Shown here in pieces: positions 1-12,239 of a stretch of DNA of 12,239 nt. The stretch covers positions 1-12,239 of the forward strand of contig NW_001915191.1 in NCBI RefSeq assembly GCF_000208925.1, written 5' to 3'. Made by a program: the position numbers and the translations under genes. Numbering within the stretch: position 1 is the stretch's first letter; each line of letters begins with the position of its first letter. This DNA comes from Entamoeba histolytica HM-1:IMSS (Eukaryota; Evosea; Mastigamoebida; Endamoebidae). Below the pieces are notes generated by a model. It saw nothing but the letters and a program-made list of their open reading frames with translations. It did not search any database and was not told the origin of the DNA.

Positions 1-1045
1 GTAAAATGATTAACTATTATTTTATTATTGAAAAATATCTTACTCTTTTTTATGTCCATTATTTATTTTTATTTCTGCATCATGATGTTTATTATATGAT
101 CAATCATATGTGTTATGCTATTATAACATATAATAAGTGATAAAATATAAATGAAAATGATATGAATATATGATATACAATATAAAACAAAAGAATAATA
201 AGAATAAATGATAAATAAAACGAGAAATGATAATAAATGATATAATAATAAATAAAAAGTATAAAAGATAAAATCAATATTAATATAAATCAAAAGAGAA
301 TAAATATAAAATGAAAATAGATATAAATGATAATAATATAAAAGATGAATAAGATGAATAAACAAATAATAAAATACATTTAAATATAAAAGAATAACAA
401 GAAGAAAATCTAAATAATATAAACATAAATAATAAAATAAGAAAAATATAATAATATATAGATAATAAGAAGAATACAATGATATAAATAATATAAACAG
501 AGAAATAAATATAAAAATACGATAGATAAATAACATATAAAGAAAAGAATAAAAAGAATAAAAATAATTAAATATGAATAATCAAATAATCTCCTTCATT
601 AATATTTCATACAGAATACAAATGATTATAAAATATAAACATAAATATTTATATATTCTGTATTTATCATACTTTTTATTTTTTTATTTTTATTTTATGA
701 GTAAAATATAATAAATGGAAAATTCTAATTATGCAAATTTTTTTGCATCTTTTTTCTTTTTTGTAAATTATTTAGACGCATTTTTTCTTTGCTTATTTTC
801 GTACCCCATTTAAATAATATCAAAACATAAATATTAAAAATATATAAACATATTAATTACATATTTTAATGAATTTGATTCAATTGATTTTAGTAATCCT
901 CATAAATATAATTTACAAAAGAAATTAAGAAATAATAGAGAAATAATACATGTTATATTAACAATAAATTGATTAATTCACAAAGAGTTAGTAAGGAGAT
1001 TAAAAACACTGAAATCTTTAAATATAAATGGTTTATAACCCATTG
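1..1045. other. A/T-rich gene-free flank, possibly host DNA
   Basis: This stretch lies outside the left inverted terminal repeat and is extremely A/T-rich. The only long open frame (69-536, minus) translates to a monotonous I/Y/L/F/S string typical of random A/T sequence, so I call no gene. Small structures are present: a 10-bp inverted repeat ATACAGAATA at 609-618 with its complement at 654-663, and a 7-bp hairpin ATGCAAA/TTTGCAT at 731-748 followed by T-runs to about 770. No tRNA, rRNA or virus-like protein is visible. It could be host chromosome next to an integrated copy, or an assembly chimera. No matching flank exists on the right, so a target-site duplication cannot be tested. Confidence 0.6.
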
Positions 1046-1063
1046 TGATAGATGACGTCAGCA

Positions 1064-1215
1064 GTCACAAAAATTACTATATTACTTATTGTCACAAATA
1101 TTTATAGTCACAAATATTTATAGTCACAAACGCGCGTAGCGCGTTATTGACCCTTCGGGTCAATTGTGACTATAAATATTTGTGACAATAAGTAATATAG
1201 TAAATTTTTTGTGAC
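1064..1215 (+). repeat. GTCACAA iterons, candidate Rep-binding sites in the ITR
   Basis: GTCACAA occurs on the plus strand at 1064-1070, 1091-1097, 1107-1113 and 1123-1129. Its complement TTGTGAC occurs at 1164-1170, 1180-1186 and 1209-1215. The middle copies are spaced 16 nt apart, about one and a half helical turns. CRESS and parvoviral Rep proteins bind short iterated sites near their nick site, so these are natural Rep-binding candidates. The heptamer ATATTAC, the 3' part of the geminivirus nonanucleotide TAATATTAC, lies at 1079-1085 and in complement at 1192-1198 in the same stem. The same set recurs in the right ITR. Confidence 0.6.
1129..1163 (+). other. Two G/C-rich cross-arms of the left ITR
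   Basis: Arm one pairs AACGCGC (1129-1135) with GCGCGTT (1139-1145) around a GTA loop. Arm two pairs TTGACCC (1147-1153) with GGGTCAA (1157-1163) around a TTC loop. Both stems are perfect 7-mers, and these are the only G/C-rich bases in an otherwise A/T-rich terminus. The right ITR holds the same arms in reverse complement (12122-12138 and 12140-12156), so both ends are in the same flip/flop state. Confidence 0.85.
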
Positions 1216-1292
1216 TGCTGACGTGGCAATCACAATTTATAGTAAATAATTAATAGTAAAAATACTATTTATTATTATACTTGATATGAGGT

Positions 1293-1320
1293 CATTACTT
1301 ATTGTCCCAAATATTTATAG
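1293..1320 (+). repeat. Degenerate internal copy of an ITR stem segment
   Basis: These 28 nt match the ITR stem at 1079-1106 at all but two positions, in the same orientation. One change turns the GTCACAA iteron into GTCCCAA; the ATTACTTATTG block is kept. It lies 69 nt inside the ITR and starts the subterminal region. It may be an extra Rep-binding or origin element, or a scar of terminal recombination. Confidence 0.7.
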
Positions 1321-1457
1321 GTGTTTCACGTATGAAAACGGGATTTCATTCGTAATGAACACCTTGAGTGGAACAAGTCCAAAGAATAGTTAAATCAACT
1401 ATTAAGAATAATACTATACTAATATTTAATGACCCTACCATCTAGATATGGTCATTA
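1320..1457. other. Series of subterminal hairpins before the first gene
   Basis: Three inverted repeats follow one another. (1) 1320-1337 pairs imperfectly with 1344-1363 around a 6-nt loop, with GGTGTT/GAACACC at its base. (2) AATAGTT (1385-1391) pairs with AACTATT (1397-1403) around 5 nt. (3) TAATGACC (1427-1434) pairs with GGTCATTA (1450-1457) around 15 nt. The third lies between a weak TATTTAATG box (1423-1431) and the first start codon, so it could be an operator or sit at the mRNA 5' end. Packaging or replication roles are equally possible. Confidence 0.6.
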
Positions 1458-1466
1458 GATCAAGCG

Positions 1467-1856
1467 ATGTATGGCACTACAAACACCACGAGAGTTAGAT
1501 TCAACAGTGACAGTGATACGGTAATCGATAAAAGAAATATTACAATCAACGATTTTATAGATTTATTAAGCGGCATTAACGGTATTAGTGAAAAGTGTCA
1601 TATACTAAGCGGGGGAACACGTTTAACATTTGGAAATAGCCCATTAAAGTGCTTCAATTTGGTTATTTTAAAGCATATAGAAATTATAGATGAAATATAC
1701 GAGATCATAGAGGATTTCAAAAAGAATAACAGACTTATTCTCTCCGAATTGAAAGAAGAAAAAGAAAGAGAAGAAAGAGAGAAGCGAATTGATGAAGCAG
1801 AGAAGAAGAAACAAGAAGAGACCAAACCAGAGAGAAGAAAGACTAGACCTCTCTAG
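1467..1856 (+). CDS. Small protein with charged C-terminal tail, unknown function
   Basis: A 129-aa protein I do not recognise. Residues 1-90 look folded and mixed in character (T/N-rich start, then ITINDFIDLL and an ILKHIEIIDEIYEIIEDF helix). Residues 91-129 form a highly charged tail of E/K/R runs ending in arginine- and lysine-rich sequence, predicted helical then disordered. It is the first gene inside the left ITR and points inward. The start follows the third subterminal hairpin, with a weak TATA-like TATTTAATG 44 nt upstream. It converges on the next gene. The EETKP-plus-basic tail resembles the tail of the 107-aa protein at 6497, though composition alone could explain that. Nucleic-acid or partner binding by the tail is a guess. 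Confidence 0.75.
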   Translation: MYGTTNTTRVRFNSDSDTVIDKRNITINDFIDLLSGINGISEKCHILSGGTRLTFGNSPLKCFNLVILKHIEIIDEIYEIIEDFKKNNRLILSELKEEKEREEREKRIDEAEKKKQEETKPERRKTRPL

Positions 1857-1919
1857 TCTAATTTAATTTAATTAATTTTAAAATTTTGTTATTTATTTTT
1901 GTTATTCAAAATTTTAAAA
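1840..1919. terminator. Gene 3' end with hairpins, between convergent genes
   Basis: A perfect 8-bp hairpin (AGACTAGA at 1840-1847, TCTAGTCT at 1852-1859, loop CCTC) spans the stop codon of the 1467 gene. Next comes AATTTAATTTAATT at 1860-1873, a 14-mer also found just past the 2500 gene (2852-2865). Then a perfect 13-bp inverted repeat, TTTTAAAATTTTG (1876-1888) with its complement at 1907-1919. The position between convergent genes suits transcript 3'-end formation. The mechanism in this host is unknown. Confidence 0.45.
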
Positions 1920-1927
1920 ATAAAACA

Positions 1928-1984
1928 ATTTGTTATTTAAACAATAAGCAATAAAAACAATAAAGGAATAAAAAGCATTCAATT
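1928..1984 (+). promoter_or_regulatory. Inverted copy of the promoter of the 1979-2287 gene
   Basis: AATTTGTTATTTAAACA at 1928-1944 on the plus strand repeats, in opposite orientation, the promoter of the neighbouring minus-strand gene (complement at 2309-2325). GCAATAA and GCATTCAAT follow in both copies (here GCATTCAAT is at 1975-1983, overlapping the gene's stop codon). The gene is thus bracketed by inverted promoter-like copies. If active, this copy would transcribe antisense through the gene; only a very short frame (ATG at 1988) lies downstream. Confidence 0.55.
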
Positions 1985-2287
1985 AAAATGATCAATATCA
2001 GGAATATACCTGCCAGAATAAAGTGTATTAAGCAGGAATAAAAGAGGACCACAATCCATAACAGTGGAATAAATATCCACCATTATGTAGTCGAGCCATT
2101 TATTCATTTGGTCCGAGTACTTTAAATGGTACTTATGATCCCAAACTCGGAACCAATAAATTAAACCATATAATACTATTTCAGTATTAGTATCTTTGGC
2201 TCGACTAAGTTGGGACTTTACTTCCCTGGCAATAGCCGAGAGTAGTACAGAAAGACGTGTCCTTCTAAAAGTACCACCAAAAGACAT
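1979..2287 (-). CDS. Small helical protein, paralogue of the 2929-3204 product
   Basis: A 102-aa protein of unknown function. It has a basic, amphipathic start (FRRTRLSVLLSAIAREVKSQL) and a hydrophobic/aromatic middle (VLYGLIYWFRVWDHKYHLKYSD). The pattern LLS-I ... L-Y---Y--R ... YSD ... LL-LL recurs in the 91-aa product at 2929-3204, suggesting an old duplication. The start is supported by TATTTAAAC on the minus strand at 2318-2310, 31 nt upstream, and by ATTCA directly before the ATG, which resembles the Entamoeba initiator AAAAATTCA. A branched inverted-repeat structure lies inside the coding region. Tiny regulatory proteins are common in viruses, but nothing here identifies a role. Confidence 0.7.
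   Translation of the reverse strand: MSFGGTFRRTRLSVLLSAIAREVKSQLSRAKDTNTEIVLYGLIYWFRVWDHKYHLKYSDQMNKWLDYIMVDIYSTVMDCGPLLFLLNTLYSGRYIPDIDHFN
2088..2207. other. Nested inverted repeats (three-way junction) inside a gene
   Basis: An outer 11-bp perfect stem (2088-2098 with 2197-2207, TAGTCGAGCCA and complement) encloses two hairpins: TTGGTCCGAGT (2108-2118) with 2145-2156, one bulge; and TAATACT (2171-2177) with AGTATTA (2183-2189). The fold could form in ssDNA, as a cruciform, or in the mRNA. The paralogous gene has a comparable structure at 3008-3180. Confidence 0.6.
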
Positions 2288-2309
2288 TGAATGCTAAAAT
2301 ATTATTGCT

Positions 2310-2318
2310 GTTTAAATA
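2310..2318 (-). promoter_or_regulatory. TATA-like TATTTAAAC of the 1979-2287 gene
   Basis: On the minus strand it reads TTTGTTATTTAAACAG, with the box beginning 31 nt before the ATG. The same TTTGTTATTTAAAC string stands before the 2929-3204 gene. It matches the Entamoeba TATA consensus core TATTTAAA(G/C). Confidence 0.65.
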
Positions 2319-2334
2319 ACAAATTAAATGGCTG

Positions 2335-2355
2335 ATATGAGGTAGCATATGAGGT
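2335..2355 (-). promoter_or_regulatory. Tandem ACCTCATAT pair, candidate regulator-binding sites
   Basis: ATATGAGGT occurs at 2335-2343 and 2347-2355 on the plus strand, so ACCTCATAT is read twice on the minus strand with a 12-nt period, upstream of the TATA box of the 1979-2287 gene. The same arrangement, ACCTCATAC twice with a 12-nt period, lies upstream of Rep at 3343-3363. A single copy occurs at 1284-1292. Confidence 0.5.
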
Positions 2356-2411
2356 GATGATTGACTTTTATACTATACTTATAATAAAAATATAATATAA
2401 TAAAAATAGAA

Positions 2412-2451
2412 AATGTCTGTTTTGTCTCTCCAACTGTCTGAATGTCTGTTT
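2412..2451 (+). promoter_or_regulatory. Direct repeats TGTCTGTTT upstream of the 2500 gene
   Basis: AATGTCTGTTT occurs at 2412-2422 and 2441-2451, with a further TGTCTG at 2435. The 9-mer TGTCTGTTT recurs on the minus strand at 3264-3272 and 3371-3379, in the control region between the 2929 gene and Rep. Shared, repeated placement next to promoters suggests a transcription-factor site. Confidence 0.4.
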
Positions 2452-2459
2452 CATCTAAA

Positions 2460-2468
2460 TATTTAAAC
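2460..2468 (+). promoter_or_regulatory. TATA-like TATTTAAAC of the 2500 gene
   Basis: TATTTAAACTATTTA starts 40 nt before the ATG at 2500 and is the same 15-mer found before the 6497 gene. CATACC follows in both, close to the start codon, so the leaders would be only a few nucleotides long, as is usual in Entamoeba. Confidence 0.65.
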
Positions 2469-2499
2469 TATTTAAGAAATAAGAATACCATACCAAACA

Positions 2500-2847
2500 A
2501 TGGATAGCGAAGACAGAGTAGAAACAATTGAAATAGAAAATATTAATATTCAAGATTTAAAAGATTATTTTATCGCATTGGATGAATTAGAAGACGTCTG
2601 CGATGATCTTGTTGAATGTTACAAGAAAGAGCAAATATACTATTTAGAAGAAGATAAATTTAATATGCTATTAGAAGAGGAGAGTGAATTAGTCGAAGCT
2701 CTATTTGAAATGTCTTCTGATATTAAAACGAAGTATAAAGATATTTTGGATGCCTTCAGAATTAGAGCAATAGAAAGACAAAGAAGAAGAAGAGTGGAGA
2801 TATCCAAAGAATTATCAAAGAAGCCAAGAGCTCCTAAAGATAATTAA
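2500..2847 (+). CDS. Acidic helical protein with basic tail, unknown function
   Basis: A 115-aa protein without a recognised family. Residues 1-85 are strongly acidic and leucine-rich (DLKDYFIALDELEDVCDDLVE, then FNMLLEEESELVEALFEM), probably a helical bundle or coiled coil. Residues 87-112 switch to a basic tail with RQRRRR at 94-98 and KKPR near the end, which could bind nucleic acid or act as a nuclear signal. It has its own promoter, shared in type with the 6497 gene, and a 3' AATTTAATTTAATT element at 2852-2865. It faces the 2929 gene convergently. Start choice: first ATG after the TATA box, in the context AAACAATGG. Confidence 0.78.
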   Translation: MDSEDRVETIEIENINIQDLKDYFIALDELEDVCDDLVECYKKEQIYYLEEDKFNMLLEEESELVEALFEMSSDIKTKYKDILDAFRIRAIERQRRRRVEISKELSKKPRAPKDN

Positions 2848-2851
2848 AATT

Positions 2852-2865
2852 AATTTAATTTAATT
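2852..2865 (+). terminator. Putative 3'-end element AATTTAATTTAATT
   Basis: This 14-mer lies just after the stop of the 2500 gene and is followed by CTTTTTAAT. The identical 14-mer lies just after the 1467 gene (1860-1873). Both sit between convergent gene pairs, consistent with mRNA 3'-end formation, though in such A/T-rich DNA a chance match is possible. Confidence 0.35.
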
Positions 2866-2928
2866 CTTTTTAATATTATTTTGTTTATTAATTAAAAATA
2901 AATAAAATAAAAAATAGTAAATTAACTA

Positions 2929-3204
2929 TTATTCCAAATCATTATTGAAATGGAAATTCTCTAATAACTCTAATAAACCTCCTAGTTTATTAAATCGCTG
3001 ATCCTTAGTGCAAGAATCGACGAAACCTGTAAGGTAATAAAATAAAACATCACTATAATTATAGTGAGTCTCCTCGAACCTCCTCATAAAATAGAGGATG
3101 GAATAGATTAGACACTTAGATTCCAAATCTAAACCATCACTCTCGAGGAGACCTTTACAGGTTTCGTCGATATCTTGCACAATAGAAGATAAGAGAGGGA
3201 ACAT
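2929..3204 (-). CDS. Small helical protein, paralogue of the 1979-2287 product
   Basis: A 91-aa protein of unknown function. The frame stays open upstream to a GTG at 3273, but the ATG at 3204 is preferred: TATTTAAAC (3236-3228, minus) lies 32 nt upstream, the same spacing as for the 1979-2287 gene, and the extra upstream residues would include the promoter. The body reads FPLLSSIVQDIDETCKG then LIYSILYFMRRFEETHYNYSD, aligning with LLSAIAREV ... LIYWFRVWDHKYHLKYSD of the 102-aa protein. The end is L/E-rich. A strong nested inverted repeat occupies the middle of the gene. Confidence 0.65.
   Translation of the reverse strand: MFPLLSSIVQDIDETCKGLLESDGLDLESKCLIYSILYFMRRFEETHYNYSDVLFYYLTGFVDSCTKDQRFNKLGGLLELLENFHFNNDLE
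3008..3180. other. Long nested inverted repeat inside the 2929 gene
   Basis: The outer stem pairs 3008-3035 with 3151-3180: about 28 matched bases with only two small bulges (GTGCAAG at the base, ACCTGTAA near the tip). Inside are a perfect 16-nt palindrome CACTATAATTATAGTG (3051-3066), a stem GTCTCCTCGA (3068-3077) with TCGAGGAGAC (3143-3152), and a small hairpin TTAGAT/ATCTAA (3116-3132). This is far beyond chance for coding sequence and parallels 2088-2207. It could be a DNA cruciform, a packaging or replication element, or an mRNA structure. Confidence 0.75.
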
Positions 3205-3227
3205 CGAATAAAATAAAAAGTATTCCA

Positions 3228-3236
3228 GTTTAAATA
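3228..3236 (-). promoter_or_regulatory. TATA-like TATTTAAAC of the 2929-3204 gene
   Basis: On the minus strand this reads TTTGTTATTTAAACTGGAATA, closely matching the promoter of the paralogous 1979-2287 gene, 32 nt before the chosen ATG. A TGTCTGTTT copy (3264-3272, minus strand) lies further upstream. Confidence 0.65.
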
Positions 3237-3342
3237 ACAAATGAAACGTGTAAACAACACAACAAACAGACACTTAAAGAGGCATTTATAAATTAATTGA
3301 ATTATAACTTTATTATTCTTTATAGTTTAAAAATCATTTTCT

Positions 3343-3379
3343 ACCTCATACATTACCTCATACAGTCAATAAACAGACA
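3343..3379 (+). promoter_or_regulatory. Rep control region: tandem ACCTCATAC and a TGTCTGTTT site
   Basis: ACCTCATAC stands at 3343-3351 and 3355-3363 with a 12-nt period, and AAACAGACA (TGTCTGTTT on the minus strand) at 3371-3379. A sequence close to the Entamoeba initiator, AAAAATTCC, follows at 3386-3394. No clear TATTTAAAC box is present; TATAGTTTAAAAATC at 3321-3335 is the nearest A/T-rich candidate. These suggest Rep is controlled by factors shared with the small genes. Confidence 0.45.
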
Positions 3380-3441
3380 AAATAGAAAAATTCCAAGGGT
3401 AATAAATAGTTCAACTCGTTACTATCAAATCATCCAACAAC

Positions 3442-3471
3442 ATGTCAGAACCTCAAAAAAAAATACTATGA
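3442..3471 (+). other. Nine-codon frame with an A9 run just before Rep
   Basis: An ATG at 3442 opens a short frame that crosses nine consecutive A residues (3455-3463) and stops at TGA 3469-3471, 10 nt before the Rep ATG. It is in a different frame from Rep. The Rep frame itself stays open back to 3386 but has no ATG before 3482. A one-base shift in the A-run would give Rep a short extra N-terminus. This may be a sequencing or assembly indel, transcriptional slippage, or simply an upstream ORF. Confidence 0.4.
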
Positions 3472-3481
3472 ATTCAAAGCC

Positions 3482-4876
3482 ATGCACGGCTATGTCACTA
3501 TCAATTTAAAAAATAATACTCCAATCCCTTCAAAAGAAACAATTAAAAATATGATTGAACAGTGGTGTACTACTAGAAGTAAAAGGGCTCAAATAAAATA
3601 TTTAGCACTGAGTAAAACAACAAAAGGACCTAATAGACATGTTCATGCCTTCTTTGAATTGGAAGATGTAAGTCACGTAAGAAAGAGACCATTTACACAA
3701 TTAAACAAGGAACAGCATTTTATGAAATTTGAAAAGATTACAGAGAACGAAAACTACGATGGAAGTTTCAAAACAATTATTGATTACTTAAAGAAACAAG
3801 GAGAAAAACATCCAGAAAGTGGAGCCATATTTGAAGAAATCGGCAAAATGGAAAACAACAGAGGAAGATTAGGTGACATCGATTTGGGTAGAGCTTTAAA
3901 GATGCCAGACTTAGAAGAGGCACATGCTTACTTGAAAGGAATAAGTGTAAAGGGATTTATGAATATTGGACAAAAATTTGATTCTTTGTGGAACCAAGAA
4001 CACAGTAGAGATAATTATAACAGAATAAGAATCAAACTTCAACCTTGGAAAGAAAATAATCCAGTAGTCAAAAACAGTAGAATATGGTTGAATTCAGCAT
4101 TGAGTGGAAAGAGCAAAAGAATTAAAACACTAGTAATAGTTAGTGATACCAAAATGGGTAAGACTGAATTTATAAATGATTTACTTAAAGATCTTAAAGT
4201 AGATGAATTCCGAGGTAGATTTATGATGGATGGTCATAATGAAAACTTGAAATATGATATCCGTCTATTTGATGATGCCAATTTAAATGACATCATTTGG
4301 CCGGAATTTAAATCTTTAATAAGTACCAGAGGAGAACAGATAACCATAAATGTAAAGTACTCTCACGCCAGAGTTACATCAATTCCGACTATTTTAGTAC
4401 TTAATCCAGGTAGTTGGAAAGCTTTGCAACAAACAGCCAAGGAGTTTGAAGACTTCGATTGGTTAGAGAAAAACACAGTAGTGCTCCAGACAAAAGAAAA
4501 ATTGTACATTGAACCACCACCTAAGGAAGAAGCAGTACGGGATAAAAGTAAATATGATGGATTAGATCCAAAACTAGTAGAAATGCTTTTGGAGAATGAA
4601 GTTGAAGAAGATGTTAGTTTAGATGATATGGGAGATAACACAATAGATGATTTAAATGATATAATAGAAGAATTGGAAGAAGAAAGCATGCCTCCTCCTG
4701 TAACACTTGAAGAGCCAATGTCAGTAGAAGAAAACAGAGAGAAAAACAAGTCTTTAATATTATCTCTATTAAAAGAGAATGATACACCATTAGTACCACC
4801 TAAAGAACCAGACGTTGAATTAACTCAACAAGCTAGAGAACTAGCAAATAGGTGGTTAGGTGGAAATTTTAATTAA
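3482..4876 (+). CDS. CRESS-type Rep: HUH nickase plus SF3 helicase
   Basis: A 464-aa replication initiator, expected to nick the origin, stay covalently bound through tyrosine, and unwind DNA in the nucleus. HUH domain: motif I YVTINL (4-9), motif II RHVHAFFEL (52-60; metal-binding H53 and H55), motif III DYLKK (101-105; catalytic Y102). Helicase: Walker A SDTKMGKT (221-228; K227, T228), Walker B DIRLFDDAN (259-267; D264/D265), motif C ILVLNPG (304-310; N308). The first Walker A residue is Ser where Gly is usual. Residues 330-464 form a long acidic, proline-containing extension unusual for CRESS Reps, ending in a basic/aliphatic segment. Motif I sits very close to the N-terminus, so the true start may lie upstream across the A9 run. 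It is followed 36 nt later by the 505-aa gene on the same strand. Confidence 0.93.
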   Translation: MHGYVTINLKNNTPIPSKETIKNMIEQWCTTRSKRAQIKYLALSKTTKGPNRHVHAFFELEDVSHVRKRPFTQLNKEQHFMKFEKITENENYDGSFKTIIDYLKKQGEKHPESGAIFEEIGKMENNRGRLGDIDLGRALKMPDLEEAHAYLKGISVKGFMNIGQKFDSLWNQEHSRDNYNRIRIKLQPWKENNPVVKNSRIWLNSALSGKSKRIKTLVIVSDTKMGKTEFINDLLKDLKVDEFRGRFMMDGHNENLKYDIRLFDDANLNDIIWPEFKSLISTRGEQITINVKYSHARVTSIPTILVLNPGSWKALQQTAKEFEDFDWLEKNTVVLQTKEKLYIEPPPKEEAVRDKSKYDGLDPKLVEMLLENEVEEDVSLDDMGDNTIDDLNDIIEELEEESMPPPVTLEEPMSVEENREKNKSLILSLLKENDTPLVPPKEPDVELTQQARELANRWLGGNFN

Positions 4877-4912
4877 CTAATTTTTGGTTTATCTTTTATT
4901 TTTATTTTAATA

Positions 4913-6430
4913 ATGAGTTATTGGTATAGACCAAATGTATTAAAACGAAAATGGGGAAGTTATGGAAATATTCATAACAATCAATACTATGATAATTATG
5001 ATGATTATTCATTTAACAATGGTTTAAATACTACTTATGATCCAGACAATGGAGAAGATGAATATTTTGAAGAAGATGATGTAGATTTACATCCAGATAG
5101 TTATCAATCAAATAATTACTTTGATCCAGACAATGAACCAGAAAGAGTAAATAAACCAGACTTGATTAATGAAGAATTTAGTAAGACAGAAGAATCAATA
5201 TTTGATGATCCAGATTATGAAGAATATACTAAAGAAATGAATATTAATGAAGACTCAATTAAAGAAGGAGAAGAAGAGAATAGTAATGATGAAGATAACA
5301 ATACAAATATATATGAAATAGTAAATCCAAATAAACCAGAAGAAATACTTACATATGATAACAATACACTCAAAATATTAGAAGATATAATTGATATTAA
5401 TGATCCACAACAATTAGGAAATGAATTAGCTATAATTCAACAAGAAATAATAGAAAACAATAATAAAATAGAACAAGAGAATAATAATGTAGAAGATACT
5501 ACTATACCATTAATATTAACAAATGAAAATAATGATATAATACTAGCAGATAATGTAGAAGAAGATAAAATACCACAACTACTTGAAGAAATAAAAGATA
5601 AAGCAATGGAAGAAGAAATAGAAATACATAAAGATGAAAAAGAACCAGATAGAAATATTATACTACCTAGACCACCAAGAGAGAATAGAAATACTATCAA
5701 ACAATGGATAGATAAAAATAGAGATAATTCCAAAAGAAAACATCATTTAGAAGATACTAATGAATATCAAGAAAAGAGAGATTTTGAACGAGGAATAAAA
5801 ATAGAAGAATTACAACAGTTCTTACCTTTAGAAGAAAAAGAAGAAAGAGAAGAAGCAATAAATGAAACAAAAATAGAAATTCCACAAAATGAAGCATTGA
5901 ACGAAAAAGAAGAAGTTCAAAATGATGAAACAATGAATAATTCATTACCAAATGAAAAAATGCAAGAAAAAAGAGAAGAGAAAGAAGAAAAAAGAATTAA
6001 AAAACCAGTTATTGTTAAGAAAGAACGAAAACTCAAAGAAGTTAAGAAGATTGATTCTAAATTTAATTATAAAGAACTCTTCGGTGACGTTAAAAACAGA
6101 AAACATGAAGTTGATGAATTGGAAAAAAGATATAGATTACTTGCTAAAGACATATCACTCAATTATAAACCAACACAAAAGAAAGAAGAAAATGATTCCA
6201 AAAATATTCTACCAGAACAAATTAAACCAATAATAGAACAAGAAGAAGAAGATTTAAGAGTTGAAGACATTCCAAAAGAGTTAACAATACAAGATCAACA
6301 AAAATATTGGAATAACTTTAAACATAATGACGAAAACATCGAATTGAATGAAGATGAAGAAGAAATAGAAGAAGATATAGAAGAAGTAGAAGAACCAGAA
6401 ATAGAATATGAGTACGAGTATGAGTTCTAG
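4913..6430 (+). CDS. Large acidic, low-complexity, probably disordered protein
   Basis: A 505-aa protein dominated by E, N, K, D and I, with long E/K runs and an acidic end (EYEYEYEF). Most is probably disordered or single-helix; I recognise no domain. A DPDN motif repeats near the N-terminus (about 44-47 and 72-75). The first 20 residues are basic and aromatic and carry KRKWGSYGNI (11-20), nearly the same as KRRYGSYGSI (15-24) in the 496-aa protein on the other strand. That suggests a shared targeting or virion-incorporation signal. It begins 36 nt after Rep, preceded by TTAATTAACT and a T-rich tract rather than TATTTAAAC, so it may use a different (late) promoter or a joint mRNA. A scaffold or assembly role is a guess. 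Confidence 0.8.
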   Translation: MSYWYRPNVLKRKWGSYGNIHNNQYYDNYDDYSFNNGLNTTYDPDNGEDEYFEEDDVDLHPDSYQSNNYFDPDNEPERVNKPDLINEEFSKTEESIFDDPDYEEYTKEMNINEDSIKEGEEENSNDEDNNTNIYEIVNPNKPEEILTYDNNTLKILEDIIDINDPQQLGNELAIIQQEIIENNNKIEQENNNVEDTTIPLILTNENNDIILADNVEEDKIPQLLEEIKDKAMEEEIEIHKDEKEPDRNIILPRPPRENRNTIKQWIDKNRDNSKRKHHLEDTNEYQEKRDFERGIKIEELQQFLPLEEKEEREEAINETKIEIPQNEALNEKEEVQNDETMNNSLPNEKMQEKREEKEEKRIKKPVIVKKERKLKEVKKIDSKFNYKELFGDVKNRKHEVDELEKRYRLLAKDISLNYKPTQKKEENDSKNILPEQIKPIIEQEEEDLRVEDIPKELTIQDQQKYWNNFKHNDENIELNEDEEEIEEDIEEVEEPEIEYEYEYEF

Positions 6431-6458
6431 AATTGTACTCCGAAAAGAGATAAATTGA

Positions 6459-6483
6459 GTATTTAAACTATTTATTTTGAACT
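6459..6483 (+). promoter_or_regulatory. Entamoeba-like core promoter of the 6497 gene
   Basis: GTATTTAAAC (6459-6468) is an exact match to the Entamoeba histolytica TATA consensus GTATTTAAA(G/C). TTTTGAACTG (containing GAACT, 6479-6483) resembles its GAAC element AATGAACT. The ATG follows at 6497, preceded by AATCATACC. The box plus CTATTTA is shared with the 2500 promoter. Confidence 0.65.
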
Positions 6484-6496
6484 GTTTAATCATACC

Positions 6497-6820
6497 ATGA
6501 CTACAAGCATTAAAGACATCATTGCTGATTTCGCCTTAGGAAAATACAAAGAAATGGGCGATGAAGAACTGATAGAAACAATGAATAAGTTAATGTACAT
6601 AATCGATGATGAGACATCCACAGAAGAAAAAGTGGCATTAAAAAAGCCATACTGGTCTCTCGTCTATAGAATAGCCAATAAGAAAGGCTTAATGTGGAAT
6701 AAGCCACAGATTAAAAAAGTAAAGACACCAGAAGTACCAAAGAAAGAATACAAAACTAAATTTGTATTAAAAGATAAAAAGAAAGAAGAAGAAACTAAAC
6801 CAAAGAAAGAAGATAATTGA
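6497..6820 (+). CDS. Small protein with lysine-rich tail, unknown function
   Basis: A 107-aa protein. Residues 1-68 look folded and helical (IKDIIADFALGKY, EELIETMNKLMYIIDD, PYWSLVYRIANKKG). Residues 69-107 are a lysine/proline-rich tail (KKVKTPEVPKKEYKTKF then KDKKKEEETKPKKEDN) suited to nucleic-acid contact. It has its own promoter, and its TGA stop directly abuts the end of the opposing 6821-8311 gene with no spacer. The tail resembles that of the 129-aa product (1467). The family is unknown. The promoter class links it to the left-hand genes rather than to the surrounding structural genes. Confidence 0.78.
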   Translation: MTTSIKDIIADFALGKYKEMGDEELIETMNKLMYIIDDETSTEEKVALKKPYWSLVYRIANKKGLMWNKPQIKKVKTPEVPKKEYKTKFVLKDKKKEEETKPKKEDN

Positions 6821-8311
6821 TTATTTATTATAAAATTTAATTTTTCCATTTATTGTTTTAAAATGATTAATTTTATCATCATCAGGTGATACTCTAAGTA
6901 ATACCTTTTCATAATCAGCACGTTTATCACTTATTCCCCATTGTTTTAATTGTTTATAAACATTCTTCATTACTTCAAATCTATCTTGTCCGCTTTGTAC
7001 TTTATTAAAATGAGGTTGTTTATATAAATATTGATGTAATCCTCTTCTTTCAAAATCAGATGGTTTAAAGATAGTACCTTTATTATCACTTCTATTTGTT
7101 CTTGCACCAATATGAATTTTATGATAATAATCATCAGAAGAATGTGTACTAATAGCTTCTGGTACTGGAATATATTGCAAACTTTCATATCTTCTCATAA
7201 CATTTGGTTCAAATGCTACATTCTCGATTCTCTTCCATAATTCAGGTGGTAATACACTTCTAATATATTGTTGACTAAAATTCAATTGGTCTAAATCATC
7301 ATCCATTAATTTATGTTGATTAGTCAAATCATTTAATTTATCAACAACAATATCACTAATCGGTTTAATAGCATCCAAATACTTTTGTATAGCCAAAGGA
7401 GCAAGAACACCAGACATTTGATCTACAATTGATGAATCTAAACATTTTTCCCCTTCTGGTGTTGTTTTAAAACAATTTCCATTAACACGAATAACTTTTC
7501 CTTTATACAAAACGGGTAATGTCAAATTTATATCCTCAGGATGAGTAAGATAATACAAAGCTAATTCTTTCTCTCCAAAAATAGTAGAAATATATTTATC
7601 AACAATTTCAGGTCTATTCTGAATTGCCATCTTAATTAATTCAAGTGCAGTATTCTTCTCAAATAAATCTCCTTGTTTGTATCTCTTTTCCAAATATTTA
7701 TATAAATTGTTTCCTTTTATTGCCTCATTAAACTCTTTGAATTCTTTAATATTAAAAATGGAAGAAACACCAAAAGCTTTTGCAATATCAGTAAAATATC
7801 TCGAACCATATTTTTTATATCCATCAACAATCCCTCGAATCAATGAAACATCTAAACGAGCAGATGGATCAAAAAGACTCTTACCATCTGTCATTTCCCA
7901 AAATTTATCTTTTATAAAATCTTTAATAATTGTTACTGGTTTCTTCTCTTCAATAAAATTATCAACTACATCAATAACACCTTTTACTTTACTTTGTAAA
8001 TCTTCAGAATCAATTACTTTCTTTACATTTGGTAAAGATGGAATATACTTCTTTATTTTTTCTTTATCAAATATTTTCCCACCATCATACTTAGAAGTAC
8101 TAAATGGTTTATATTTTGAACTATCAACTCTCCTAGAATTATCAAAAGGACGAATACTTAGTGGATTAGTTCTGTTAGAAATACTAAAAGGATGATATTT
8201 CTGTTGAGTACTTCTTCGTATTCCATCATAATTAAATCGTATAGATCCATATGATCCATATCTTCTTTTATGAAGATTTAATCGTTGTTTTCTCTTCTTA
8301 ACCAAACACAT
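6821..8311 (-). CDS. Basic N-terminal protein, possible minor structural protein
   Basis: A 496-aa protein I do not recognise. Its first 40 residues are very basic (KKRKQR, HKRRYGSYGSI, IRRS) and contain the motif shared with the 505-aa protein. Residues 40-90 are S/N/K/P-rich. From about 90 to 260 it looks helical and folded (KGVIDVVDNFIEEKK, DVSLIRGIVDGYKKYGSRYF, ELIKMAIQNRPEIVDKYIS). Residues 330-496 mix charged helices and loops. No catalytic motif or membrane segment is obvious. It is the second gene of a minus-strand pair, 12 nt after the 74-aa membrane gene, with a T-rich leader (TTAATTAACTTTTTATTTTA) like that of the 4913 gene. The size, basic tail and position among capsid genes suggest a virion or DNA-associated protein; this is inference. 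Confidence 0.8.
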   Translation of the reverse strand: MCLVKKRKQRLNLHKRRYGSYGSIRFNYDGIRRSTQQKYHPFSISNRTNPLSIRPFDNSRRVDSSKYKPFSTSKYDGGKIFDKEKIKKYIPSLPNVKKVIDSEDLQSKVKGVIDVVDNFIEEKKPVTIIKDFIKDKFWEMTDGKSLFDPSARLDVSLIRGIVDGYKKYGSRYFTDIAKAFGVSSIFNIKEFKEFNEAIKGNNLYKYLEKRYKQGDLFEKNTALELIKMAIQNRPEIVDKYISTIFGEKELALYYLTHPEDINLTLPVLYKGKVIRVNGNCFKTTPEGEKCLDSSIVDQMSGVLAPLAIQKYLDAIKPISDIVVDKLNDLTNQHKLMDDDLDQLNFSQQYIRSVLPPELWKRIENVAFEPNVMRRYESLQYIPVPEAISTHSSDDYYHKIHIGARTNRSDNKGTIFKPSDFERRGLHQYLYKQPHFNKVQSGQDRFEVMKNVYKQLKQWGISDKRADYEKVLLRVSPDDDKINHFKTINGKIKFYNK

Positions 8312-8323
8312 TAAAATAAAAAG

Positions 8324-8548
8324 TTAATTAGGAATTAAAGTTTTTACTACTTCTAATACTTCTTCTACTGCATTCATAACATTCCCCTGTCTTCTACTTT
8401 CAAAAAATGCAAAGAAACAACTAGCTATTAATAATATACATGATAATAGAAGCATGACTATTTTACGGATAATATTCCATGTACTTTCTTTAAACACTTC
8501 TTCTGTACATTTAGACGAGTGATTAGAATCACTGGAGTCTGCACTCAT
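8324..8548 (-). CDS. Small single-pass membrane protein
   Basis: A 74-aa protein with a polar S/D/N-rich N-terminus (1-22), one strongly hydrophobic segment at about 26-49 (IIRKIVMLLLSCILLIASCFFAFF), then SRRQ and a short amphipathic helix (NAVEEVLEVVKTLI). The positive SRR after the membrane segment suggests the C-terminus faces the cytosol. Its ATG is only 3 nt from the divergent 8552 gene. Read on its own strand, upstream sequence includes GATGAACTG (GAAC-like) and ATATAAAG. A small viral membrane protein could act in entry, egress or lysis; nothing decides between these. Confidence 0.7.
   Translation of the reverse strand: MSADSSDSNHSSKCTEEVFKESTWNIIRKIVMLLLSCILLIASCFFAFFESRRQGNVMNAVEEVLEVVKTLIPN
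8518..8546. promoter_or_regulatory. Twin palindromes at a divergent gene start
   Basis: AGTGATTAGAATCACT (8518-8533) is a 7-bp inverted repeat around AG, followed by GAGT/ACTC (8535-8546). Both lie within the start of the 74-aa gene and immediately upstream of the 8552 gene. They may be an operator or just a feature of the serine-rich coding sequence (SDSNHS). Confidence 0.35.
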
Positions 8549-8551
8549 ATT

Positions 8552-9427
8552 ATGAATTATTCAGTTCATCTTTATATTCAAATGATCCGTTCTAGAAATA
8601 ACTGTCCTAATAATACACATGAAGTAGAATTTGTTTTTAATACCCCTATTGAAATTATATTAAATAAAGGAATGGGTGTATATACAACTTCTCTTTTTGA
8701 TTTACTCTTCAATAACACTAATTATAAATCATTCTGTAATTGTTTTAAAAGAGTTAAAATATTTAAAGCATTGATTAGTCTCTCAATAGGTGAAATAAAT
8801 GTAGAAGAAATAGGATTAAATTTTCCTATTGTTAGTACTACATGGTTTCCAACATATATTCGTTCCAATATTGATCAAGACACTGCTGATGACAAAGATA
8901 TAAATAAAGTAATTAATATGATTAATTCAAGTACTCATTTACAACAACAAGTCTATTATCCAGGTGGAGCATTTCAAATTAATAGTATTATTAAAGCTAT
9001 GACATTACAAGAACAAAACTATTATGGACCTACTAGAGTAGAAGGATATTGGAAATATGATTCACCTGAACTTCAACCATTTACAAATGAAAATGTAAGT
9101 ATTCCTTTTTATCCATGGTACTTCATAGGAATAGAAACACCAAATAACAATGATAATAAAAGTATTAAATTTAATTGTCAATGGTATATCACTGTTCATT
9201 TTGATAGATACATTATTACACCAACTGAATTAAAAGAAAATGAAGGAGAACCACCATTAGATTTACTTGATTTAAATGTCAATTTAACTAATGAAGAAAT
9301 CAAACAAAGAGAAACACTTACATATCAAGCAGAAAATAATTCAGCATATGAAAAAGTAACTATAGCATTTCCTGAAAAAGAAGAATCTACATTTATTTTA
9401 ATTATAAAAGATAAACAATTATATTAA
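8552..9427 (+). CDS. Second jelly-roll-like capsid protein
   Basis: A 291-aa protein. A GTG at 8519 would extend the frame into the divergent gene; the ATG at 8552 is preferred. The layout is that of a CRESS single jelly-roll coat protein: FKRVKIFKALISLSI (65-79), TTWFPTYIRSNIDQDTADD (97-115), YYPGGAF (135-141), LQEQNYYGPT (152-161), then YPWYFIGIET and WYITVHFDRY (187-220). The string YYPG ... LQE ... Y-PT also occurs in the 507-aa capsid protein, so the two are probably related. Unlike that protein it lacks an arginine-rich N-terminus, so it is less likely to contact the genome and may be a minor or vertex subunit. Residues 222-291 are an acidic tail. It is followed by the fibre-like gene 20 nt later. 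Confidence 0.7.
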   Translation: MNYSVHLYIQMIRSRNNCPNNTHEVEFVFNTPIEIILNKGMGVYTTSLFDLLFNNTNYKSFCNCFKRVKIFKALISLSIGEINVEEIGLNFPIVSTTWFPTYIRSNIDQDTADDKDINKVINMINSSTHLQQQVYYPGGAFQINSIIKAMTLQEQNYYGPTRVEGYWKYDSPELQPFTNENVSIPFYPWYFIGIETPNNNDNKSIKFNCQWYITVHFDRYIITPTELKENEGEPPLDLLDLNVNLTNEEIKQRETLTYQAENNSAYEKVTIAFPEKEESTFILIIKDKQLY

Positions 9428-9447
9428 TTAACTCTTTTTTATCATTC

Positions 9448-10221
9448 ATGTCTATCATTAACAAGACAACAAAACAAGAAACTTTAATAAAAAAAGATGA
9501 ATTAAATAAAAATACATTCAAAGTAACAGTAAATACAGATGATGTAACTATCGAAACAACTACAAATGGAACAACAACATTCACCAGTGAAAATTATATT
9601 AACAGTATTCAATTAATCACTCAAGTACCTGAACCAAAAATCCAAACAAAAGCAGTTACTATTACTGAAAATGGTTCATACACTATCAGTCCAGATGATA
9701 ACCTTGATGTACTTGATCATGTCTATGTCACTGCAAATGTACCACAATATAAAATAGATTCTATATCAGTATATCAAACCGGTGCTACAACATTAGCAAC
9801 AGTAGCAACAGAAATAATAAATATTACAGAAGACACTGATATTACAGACTTAATACCAGCAGATGGAAATTTACATAAAGTAGTAACTACCTCAACTGGT
9901 AATAAATACATAAAAATTACAAAAAAAGAAAATTGTCAATTTATATTATTTACACTTACTAATAGTGATGGTTTATTTATATATGAAATGGAAATAGAAA
10001 AAGAATTTATTATATACAATTATTTAATATATTATATATTGAAATTAAATACAGAAAGTCCGAATACTGGTATTTTTCGTTTTTGTAAAGGAACAACTGC
10101 AGAAGAAGCAATTGAACTAATTAGTTATGATTCAGTAAATATTGGTTCTGAAAAAAGTAATGCAAACTTTAAAATGTCATTGAACTCATCTCTACTTTCA
10201 GAAAACTTCCCAATACAATAA
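9448..10221 (+). CDS. Fibre/spike-like protein with phage-tail ITENG motif
   Basis: A 257-aa, T/N/S/I-rich, beta-strand-rich protein. Residues about 68-100 hold AVTITENGSYTISPDD followed by VLDHVYVTANVP, a form of the 'ITENGTYtp..GydG...V.VNVP' module I know from tail fibre, baseplate and other surface proteins of Firmicutes phages and their hosts. Residues 1-65 are strand-forming (FKVTVNTDDVTIETTTNGTTTF). The C-terminal half (115-257) is strand-rich with an aromatic core and could be the receptor-binding head. There is no signal peptide or membrane segment. It sits between the two capsid-like genes and converges with the 507-aa gene, 10 nt away. A surface spike acquired from gut bacteria or phages is the favoured reading. 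Confidence 0.6.
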   Translation: MSIINKTTKQETLIKKDELNKNTFKVTVNTDDVTIETTTNGTTTFTSENYINSIQLITQVPEPKIQTKAVTITENGSYTISPDDNLDVLDHVYVTANVPQYKIDSISVYQTGATTLATVATEIINITEDTDITDLIPADGNLHKVVTTSTGNKYIKITKKENCQFILFTLTNSDGLFIYEMEIEKEFIIYNYLIYYILKLNTESPNTGIFRFCKGTTAEEAIELISYDSVNIGSEKSNANFKMSLNSSLLSENFPIQ

Positions 10222-10231
10222 TTCAATTAAT

Positions 10232-11755
10232 TTAAGCACTAATAAGTTTTTGGTTATCATTTGAAAACAATCCAGTAACAAATGTTTTACTAACAAGTAC
10301 AACTGGATTCAATACTCCACCTCCAACTGTTCCAGCAACAACTGGTAATGCACCTGAAGCAATAGTAACTGCATTATCCACAATTGTTTCACTATAAGCA
10401 TATAAAAGAGATCCAATTACATCAGTTGATGAACCAGTAGTAGTTTTAACATTAATTTTAACTTCTGAATTACCACCAGTAGAAATATTAGGTAAGTTAA
10501 TTCCAAATATATCAAATTCATTACTTGCAATAACATAAGTACTAGCATCAGTAGCAATATTAACAGTATGTGCATTAGTATTAGCATTACCTAATAAATA
10601 AGCAGATATATTATATCCGTTTACTCCAGAACCAAGAGTACCAGCAGTAGCAAATACAACTAAACGTACTCTCATAACACTTGTACTACCTCCTCTAATA
10701 GTTAAACTTCCATCAGCGGTAGATGGTTGTAATATACCAAATTGATCAAAATTCAAATCTATAGCATTAACTTGTGAAATTCCTGCATTATAAAATACAT
10801 TATTCAAATACATCTTAAATGAATCAACTGTCCATGTATTAGATGAACCTGATAGTTGTCCACCCGTTGTTTGTACCATTGATGTATAAATTGGATTATC
10901 TGTAGTAACAACTCCTCCTTGGTTAGTTGTAGTCATACTAACAGGAATCATTGCATTATTTGTACCTGATGCAACTGTTCCAGCATTAGTATTAGCATAA
11001 CCAAGTGAATTAGCAGCAGGTGTTGGAATAACATCAAGTGTACTTTTTCTCAATCCTCTAAGTGAAACAACCCATGACCATGTTAAATTAAATACAAGTG
11101 TTTGACATGTAGCTGTTTGATTTCCTAAAAGAACAGAAAGTAAGAAATCAGGATTCCATGCTGCATATAAAGTAGATTCAGTTAATACTTCAGCAGTCTT
11201 TACTGTTGGAAGATAAATACTCTTCTCCTGTAATGAAGATGCAAAAGATCTTCTTGTAATACCCCATCTAGCTCCTGGATAATATGCTCTACTTACTGCA
11301 CTTGAATATGAACTCACTTGATAAGGACCTGGTACTATTGGTACATTACTTAATACACCTTGTCCTTCTTGTGTTACTTGACTTGCTACTGCTTTATCTA
11401 TACCATTTCTATCCCATGCAGTAATAACATTAGGAAATGTCATTGCAGCTTGACCAAATGTATTGTAAACAATTTCAGCTGACACTGACACTCCATCTAT
11501 TTTAAATTGATCATACATTCCAGCATAATATTGGAAGAATTCCATGCCGCAAAGTAATTTAGTAACATTCATTACAGTTGTAGCACCATTAGTATTTGCT
11601 GGAATAGCTAATTGTACTGTTTCAGTAGCATTCAACACTACTTGAGTTGAATCTCTTTGTTGAAAAGCAGCTTTTAAATTCCCAGCCATAGTACTTCTTA
11701 AATTTCTTCTAGTTGAAGTAGGTCTAGTAGTCGTGGCTCTTCTTGTACGTCTCAT
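10232..11755 (-). CDS. Major capsid protein, arginine-rich N-terminus and jelly roll
   Basis: A 507-aa coat protein. Residues 1-24 are arginine/threonine-rich (RRTRR, RPTSTRRNLR), the DNA-binding arm typical of CRESS capsids. The jelly-roll region covers about 35-240: FFQYYAGMYDQFKIDGVSVSAEI, FPNVITAWDRNG (108-118), AYYPGARWGITRRS (157-170), SLQEKSIYLPTV, and FNLTWSWVVSLRGL near the final strand. Residues 240-507 are T/S/N/G-rich with few charges and predicted strands, likely a surface projection domain; CRESS capsids are usually shorter. It is transcribed leftward from near the right ITR, with TGTTTAAAC 42 nt upstream. Codons are clean with no breaks. Confidence 0.85.
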   Translation of the reverse strand: MRRTRRATTTRPTSTRRNLRSTMAGNLKAAFQQRDSTQVVLNATETVQLAIPANTNGATTVMNVTKLLCGMEFFQYYAGMYDQFKIDGVSVSAEIVYNTFGQAAMTFPNVITAWDRNGIDKAVASQVTQEGQGVLSNVPIVPGPYQVSSYSSAVSRAYYPGARWGITRRSFASSLQEKSIYLPTVKTAEVLTESTLYAAWNPDFLLSVLLGNQTATCQTLVFNLTWSWVVSLRGLRKSTLDVIPTPAANSLGYANTNAGTVASGTNNAMIPVSMTTTNQGGVVTTDNPIYTSMVQTTGGQLSGSSNTWTVDSFKMYLNNVFYNAGISQVNAIDLNFDQFGILQPSTADGSLTIRGGSTSVMRVRLVVFATAGTLGSGVNGYNISAYLLGNANTNAHTVNIATDASTYVIASNEFDIFGINLPNISTGGNSEVKINVKTTTGSSTDVIGSLLYAYSETIVDNAVTIASGALPVVAGTVGGGVLNPVVLVSKTFVTGLFSNDNQKLISA

Positions 11756-12060
11756 TTATTTCAATAACTCAGTTGAATCTAAATTCAAGTTTAAACAGCT
11801 GAATCTTGTTTGATACATAATATATGATGGATAATGATATCCTGTATTAAAATGATGTATAGACCCGTAAGAAATTAAATAATCGTTTTAGTCGTAATCA
11901 TAAGGTGAAGAGGATCACAGTAACACAGTGAATGGGATGACTGAACCTGATTATGATTAAAAAAGATTTTTAATGCTAAAAGGGTCGTAAACTCCCATTA
12001 TCAATACATACACTCACAATATCATTAATCCATTATACATTGATTAAACTGTATTTGATG
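11756..12060. other. Right subterminal non-coding region
   Basis: About 300 nt without a supportable gene. It holds the capsid promoter, then a nested inverted repeat: TAATCATAA (11895-11903) with TTATGATTA (11951-11959), extended by AGGT/ACCT, and an outer GACCC (11862-11866) with GGGTC (11982-11986). The T-run after 11961 and the compact fold could mark a small RNA or a packaging/replication signal. It shares no obvious sequence with the left subterminal region. Confidence 0.5.
11789..11797 (-). promoter_or_regulatory. TATA-like TGTTTAAAC of the major capsid gene
   Basis: On the minus strand TGTTTAAAC begins 42 nt before the capsid ATG at 11755, one base off the TATTTAAAC box of the left-hand genes. 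CAACTGAG follows between it and the ATG. Confidence 0.45.
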
Positions 12061-12239
12061 ACGTCAGCAGTCACAAAAAATTTACTATATTACTTATTGT
12101 CACAAATATTTATAGTCACAATTGACCCGAAGGGTCAATAACGCGCTACGCGCGTTTGTGACTATAAATATTTGTGACTATAAATATTTGTGACAATAAG
12201 TAATATAGTAATTTTTGTGACTGCTGACGTCATCTATCA
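12061..12239 (-). repeat. Right inverted terminal repeat, T-shaped hairpin telomere
   Basis: This 179-nt block is, by eye, an exact reverse complement of 1046-1224, with the same two arms (12122-12138 and 12140-12156), iterons and 16-nt duplication. Here the stem extends 4 bp further (GATG at 12057-12060 with CATC at 12231-12234), leaving TATCA unpaired at the very end. The window stops at this base, consistent with a real molecular end or with assembly stopping at the hairpin. Confidence 0.93.

Follow-up and report, generated by a model that had tools for sequence, protein, structure and literature searches.

T-shaped terminal palindromes on a CRESS-like provirus of Entamoeba histolytica hint at a second route to a linear virus genome

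The window analysed here is the entire 12239-base contig NW_001915191.1 of Entamoeba histolytica HM-1:IMSS (C69 in our numbering), and the genome searched for comparison comprised 16.95 Mb in 392 contigs. Among host repeats, the window holds a virus-derived element of ~11 kb, a provirus integrated in the Entamoeba genome (Table 1), with several features of the Cressdnaviricota, i.e., a predicted HUH nuclease of the type found in CRESS (circular Rep-encoding single-stranded DNA) viruses, a superfamily 3 (SF3) helicase domain, and a jelly-roll capsid. The initial annotation had described a linear virus of ~11.2 kb; a single ~11.2-kb unit is indeed present and its genes recur in other copies, but the contig represents an integrated provirus rather than a linear virus. 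Searches of the contigs recovered other, diverged copies of the element in the same genome, and we label element ends by contig and side, with L for left and R for right (e.g., C69L, C123R).

Table 1. Features of the 12239-base window (aa, amino acids; nt, nucleotides; dN/dS, ratio of nonsynonymous to synonymous substitution rates)
Feature	Position	Strand	Basis or remark
Dispersed AT-rich host repeat, not viral	1..806	.	Sharp end at 806
3' end of a host long interspersed nuclear element (LINE), truncated, with internal deletion	807..1016	+	LINE piece to ~1015
Motif X, 29 nt, outermost sequence common to element ends	1017..1045	+	Small hairpin AATGG/CCATT, by eye
Left T-shaped palindrome	1046..1228	+	Stem 1055-1224; arm loops GTA, TTC; seven GTCACAA sites
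Copy of palindrome-stem motif, 27 nt, 96% identity	1294..1320	+	Just inside left end
129-aa protein	1467..1856	+	Homologous stretches in other copies, 42-56% identity
102-aa protein	1979..2287	-	94-96% in C123, C189, C48; dN/dS 0.11-0.27; one stop in C189 copy
115-aa protein	2500..2847	+	dN/dS 0.10-0.14 vs C123, C189
114-aa protein	2929..3273	-	91-96% in C123, C189, C11, C48; dN/dS 0.13-0.24
Rep of CRESS type, with predicted HUH nuclease and SF3-type helicase domains	3482..4876	+	Motifs, fold matches
505-aa acidic protein	4913..6430	+	Short N-terminal motif in common with 496-aa protein
107-aa protein	6497..6820	+	63% over 70 aa in contig C142
496-aa protein, basic N terminus	6821..8311	-	97-99% in contig C11, in two frames
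291-aa protein, possible diverged capsid-like	8552..9427	+	Weak capsid-alignment match, hhalign probability 42, E 2.6e-4
257-aa protein	9448..10221	+	92% in C189; 64-67% in C123, C48, C174
Predicted capsid, 507 aa	10232..11755	-	Jelly roll ~35-242, further beta domain behind
Right T-shaped palindrome	12057..12239	-	Cut by contig end

A structure search with the product of the gene at 3482 bore out its initial assignment, as its predicted fold is that of a CRESS-type Rep. The nuclease domain and the two-domain Rep of Vientovirus (Redondoviridae, which are circular and ~3 kb) were among the best matches, at 17-20% identity. Both histidines of the HUH motif (HVH) are kept in 20 of 20 aligned Rep relatives; Walker A, Walker B, and motif C are present, with the aspartate pair of Walker B in all 20 and the asparagine of motif C in 18 (serine in one, a gap in one). 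Thus the HVH and SF3 helicase motifs listed earlier stand, whereas the second lysine of the proposed YLKK does not: the lysine two positions after the motif-III tyrosine is conserved (18 of 20), but the third position is variable (lysine in six, arginine in six, asparagine in seven, a gap in one). Pfam gave only weak matches to the 20 Reps (REP_ORF2-G2P in eight, Gemini_AL1_M in four, Gemini_AL1 and PPV_E1_C in two each), and dN/dS of Rep is 0.10-0.15 across copies, which shows selection on the gene in the diverged elements. Where named, the 27 Rep relatives belong to E. histolytica, E. dispar, and E. nuttalli, and a profile search with Rep returned 35 proteins, of which the named ones are all from Entamoeba. 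No relatives were found in IMG/VR by Rep, capsid, their alignments, or the palindrome pattern, nor among phage records by Rep; in both collections, records of the same genome were possibly left out.

The product of the gene at 10232 is, by its modelled fold, a capsid with a jelly roll like that of circoviruses and tombusviruses, with porcine circovirus 2 (PCV2) first in the fold search; the Circo_capsid family matched only at E 0.55. It corresponds to E. histolytica CL6EHI_154760 at 100% identity by BLAST, and one residue differs in a separate alignment. Capsid relatives, like those of Rep, are also annotated in E. dispar and E. nuttalli; the protein matches point to Entamoeba, most likely E. 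histolytica, as the host, and actin genes mark the genome as eukaryotic. CRESS-like capsid proteins had been proposed in the plural, but the circovirus-like fold belongs to this product, and the one encoded at 8552 is only a weak lead.

The element is bounded by palindromes. Positions 1046-1224 and 12061-12239 form an inverted repeat of 179 nt with 100% complementarity, and the stretch 1046-1230, computed as single-stranded DNA, takes the shape of a T, in which a long stem bears two arms of 7 bp with loops of 3 nt and a spacer of a single base, at -72.6 kcal/mol (z -19.8; 0 of 200 shuffles equalled it); identical 179-bp palindromes with two short arms, as first described, are thereby confirmed. 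The window has 14 copies of the heptamer GTCACAA, seven per palindrome and none between them, and the heptamer is a candidate Rep-binding site. Contig C123 has the identical palindrome type at both ends of its copy (9370-9552 and 19607-19787), with the flanks present. Position 12239 had been taken as the end of the element, but the contig itself stops there, so the right end in the window is an assembly end; in C123, a further 29 shared nt lie outside the palindrome.

A T palindrome of different sequence, a second type, lies at C174R. When C69L, C123L, C123R, and C174R were aligned, all 28 base pairs were kept in all four rows, and nine of them had changed in C174R, each on both sides and none on one side only, with loops and spacer unchanged; such two-sided change was reached in 0 of 500 shuffles. 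These sequence comparisons support T-shaped palindromes that are real and whose fold is conserved. The order of the two arms could be read at six ends, with one order at C69L, C69R, C123R, and C189R and the other at C123L and C174R, and both orders occur at left ends as well as at right ends, which resembles the flip and flop arm orders of adeno-associated virus (AAV; here four ends versus two). In contig C48 (L022:1-1600), an inverted duplication joins two left ends head to head; its halves are 95% alike over 425 columns, and the terminal palindrome is missing in between.

The sequence shared by element ends extends outward past 1046, the left limit first proposed, to 1017, and thus includes the 29-nt motif X. 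A genome search allowing up to three mismatches found seven copies of X (C69L, C123L, C123R, C189L, C189R, C48R, and C11L), all at element ends, and none of the reversed motif used as a control; in C123, X is present outside the palindrome on both sides. The palindrome is therefore subterminal, unlike that of AAV, which is the outermost sequence, and of the "AAV-type telomere" of the initial annotation the T shape stands but not the terminal position, as 29 nt of X lie beyond it. The seven ends, from five contigs, diverge at the same base outside X, and two unrelated flanks follow. One is the LINE 3' end, at C69L, C123L, C123R, C189L, and C189R; the same LINE in contig C123 carries a reverse transcriptase upstream (RVT_1, E 9.6e-13), and, of the 39 other copies of the LINE that were listed (40 of 155 candidates scored), 37 stop at the point where the pieces at these ends do. 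Four of the ends (C69L, C123R, C189L, and C189R) have one and the same deletion in the LINE piece, which in all four abuts the dispersed repeat seen at the left of the window. Window positions 540-1050 gave 44 listed matches, most reaching only ~806 (40 of 359 candidates scored), and the copies of this repeat stop at the same base and continue into differing DNA; it is possibly ERE1 or ERE2, compared by description only with the available text of PMC2657916. In contig C142 (L030:1130-1472), the dispersed repeat directly abuts a truncated capsid gene, so that such repeats also lie within, or cut, elements. The other flank, at C48R and C11L, is AT-rich and 90% alike over 737 columns (X included); elsewhere in the genome, the best match to it among the 40 of 44 candidates that were scored reaches 70% identity.

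We read the element, with a probability of about one half, as the integrated copy of an ~11.2-kb Entamoeba DNA virus that encodes a CRESS-type Rep along with a circovirus-like capsid and whose genome would replicate as a linear molecule bounded by inverted repeats; its linearity, the binding and nicking by Rep, and the hairpin transfer are parts of the model that we infer. The inverted repeat bounding the linear genome would consist of X plus the T-shaped palindrome (~208 bp). Rep would bind the stem at its GTCACAA sites and the palindrome would fold; the HUH domain would nick beside it while the helicase would open it, and the end would be recopied from the hairpin, a step that would invert the arm order and keep the halves complementary. 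A linear, hairpin-copied genome is preferred because it explains arm inversion and strict complementarity together. The left-left duplication in C48 is what hairpin-copied dimers might leave behind, and a fusion of two proviruses fits it equally. Somewhat more tentatively, slightly short of an even chance, we suggest that a CRESS lineage of amoebae independently evolved this linear ~11-kb hairpin-copied genome, with a T palindrome subterminal to a 29-nt terminal motif.

Several points weigh against a linear genome. The main difficulty is X itself, which the model leaves unexplained, as a 3' end at X, outside the palindrome, could not self-prime as that of AAV does. Beyond X, ends belonging to different elements share their flanks in inverted orientation, which may mean that the true end is further out and the inverted repeat longer; either end-to-end recombination carried the flanks along, or the repeat exceeds X plus the T. 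The test of paired changes effectively compares two T types, as three of the four aligned sequences hardly differ from one another, and complementary halves could also be maintained by arm-to-arm conversion. Some ends have lost their structure: the palindrome is gone between short repeats at C189L, the arms are lost at C48R and C11L, and at C189R, which carries a T of the second type, the second arm has decayed. Finally, only integrated copies were seen, from which we infer the free linear form, and 11 kb would be a large genome for a circovirus-like shell.

The strongest competitor, which we consider possible though less probable, is a circular free genome with one long inverted-repeat origin (T-X-X'-T'), in which Rep would nick at the X/X' border and integration would begin and end there, much as with HUH transposons or origin-joined inserts, so that the ends would be fixed and the hairpins subterminal. 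The position of X outside the palindrome fits a Rep cut at X, which this circular form would share, and X keeps that fixed place in seven of seven copies; the Rep and capsid folds are of CRESS type, and the sole Entamoeba CRESS viruses described in the available text of PMC7493932 are circular. However, no X-X' junction occurs among the seven X copies in the assembly, inversion of the arm order within single palindromes is unexpected without hairpin copying or cruciform resolution, and the CRESS nonanucleotide NANTATTAC is at chance level (five found versus 5.3 expected), with none in the palindromes, although the origin may be a variant one.

It is unlikely that the inverted repeat is far longer than X plus the T, with the palindrome internal to a transposon-like or protein-primed element whose integration points and ends lie outside the window. 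Such a repeat would explain why the LINE and dispersed-repeat flank recurs at four ends and the AT-rich flank at C48R and C11L, but both the LINE and the dispersed repeat occur many times apart from the element, two unrelated flanks begin at one and the same base next to X, and family scans recognised no polymerase or integrase among the window proteins. That the element is a true parvovirus relative, its Rep and capsid being of parvovirus descent, is very improbable. Foldseek against the PDB does place AAV2 Rep68 first (E 1.6e-6, TM score ~0.2), and the Rep helicase matches those of AAV (Rep40) and B19 (NS1) along with E1 and Vientovirus, with many other AAA+ proteins scoring alike; parvovirus nuclease domains do not appear among the 50 VIA matches listed for Rep, which excludes nothing, nor does a parvovirus capsid among the 50 listed for the capsid, which does not exclude one, and Parvo_NS1 is absent from the 12 Pfam families hit by the 20 Rep relatives (E 0.1). 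An assembly artefact is hardly credible: C69 and C174 do end inside a palindrome, but the palindromes lie in separate contigs with differing sequence and nine pairs changed on both sides, and C123 carries both ends with their flanks.

The element and the Parvoviridae (AAV) have in common T-shaped palindromes that bear a pair of short arms and occur in either arm order, but the predicted Rep and capsid folds of the element match CRESS proteins first, X lies outside its palindrome, and parvovirus genomes measure 4-6 kb compared to ~11 kb here. Naryaviridae and Nenyaviridae, published in 2020, are presented in the available text as circular CRESS viruses of Entamoeba that integrate whole and have a nonanucleotide origin (PMC7493932). 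They share with the element the host genus, CRESS Rep and Cap, and integration in Entamoeba, whereas, compared by description only, they are circular with a nonanucleotide origin and the element has inverted T palindromes; the word "inverted" does not occur in the main text of that paper. Redondoviruses, whose Rep domains are among the best fold matches, have been linked to Entamoeba gingivalis, as the title of PMC10094137 states. Size had initially been offered as an argument, with CRESS genomes mostly of 1.5-6 kb, and this is weakened by adomaviruses, which the available portion of PMC11071296, a preprint on chimeric viruses, gives as 9-20 kb, predicted to be circular, and with a CRESS-like Rep; size alone is therefore not new. 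The same portion describes parvoviruses with an extra CressRep that kept their own NS1, and it makes no mention of Entamoeba. CRESS-like Rep genes of E. histolytica, E. dispar, and E. invadens were in print before 2011 (PMC3198968), in a paper whose available text presents the Rep genes and does not describe the element itself. Searches of the open-licence literature, judged by titles and the openings of abstracts, turned up no account of an 11-kb element whose ends are T-shaped.

Parvoviruses gave up the circular genome, and we know of no second independent switch from circle to linear form. The T-shaped ends on this CRESS-like element hint that such a switch may have happened. If true, hairpin-copied linear genomes would have originated a second time from rolling-circle ancestors, separately from parvoviruses, the Reps of which have been proposed as descendants of CRESS-like ancestors (available portion of PMC11071296). 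With a CRESS Rep and capsid, conserved T palindromes, and both arm orders, the switch would become testable in a lab-grown amoeba, and E. histolytica gains a family of DNA proviruses that carry several genes in intact form.

Nine further reading frames of the element have homologous stretches elsewhere, each at one or more loci on other contigs (24 loci searched, not every one spanning every gene). No window protein could be assigned to a family with confidence by searches against Pfam, PHROGs, and NCBIfam, and five sequence searches of the PDB gave best E values of 0.34, none, 0.077, none, and 0.61. A PHROGs match of the 115-aa protein (E 5e-4) covered only 70 of 1940 positions and was not used. 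The 257-aa protein has PHROGs matches only at E 0.07, and one stretch of it is reminiscent of phage tail protein repeats. The N-terminal motif common to the 505-aa and 496-aa proteins comprises 10 of 18 residues (E 0.003) and is basic in these two otherwise unlike proteins (KRKWGSYGNI and KRRYGSYGSI, respectively). Within the same contigs, synonymous divergence (dS) is ~1 for Rep, 0.03-0.09 for the capsid, and 0.06-1.7 for the small left-hand genes; the elements seem to be mosaics that exchange modules.

A second lineage is found in five contigs (C88, C86, C72, C82, and C49; loci L015, L016, L082, and L083), with a CRESS-like Rep 24-26% identical to that of the window, a capsid of 325 aa that lacks the second domain, and a neighbouring gene for a 477-aa protein; over a stretch of 3.8 kb, C88 and C86 agree at 97.7%. 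The ends of this lineage were not found, and no palindrome of the T kind was seen at L015, L016, and L083 in the parts of the contigs that were read, where the search was for exact arms of 14 or 12 nt only. A packaging-type ATPase gene in contig C189 (L062:3411-4160; Pox_A32, E 1.3e-5, above the cut-off), which has 10 matches in nine contigs, probably marks one more virus-like element in this genome.

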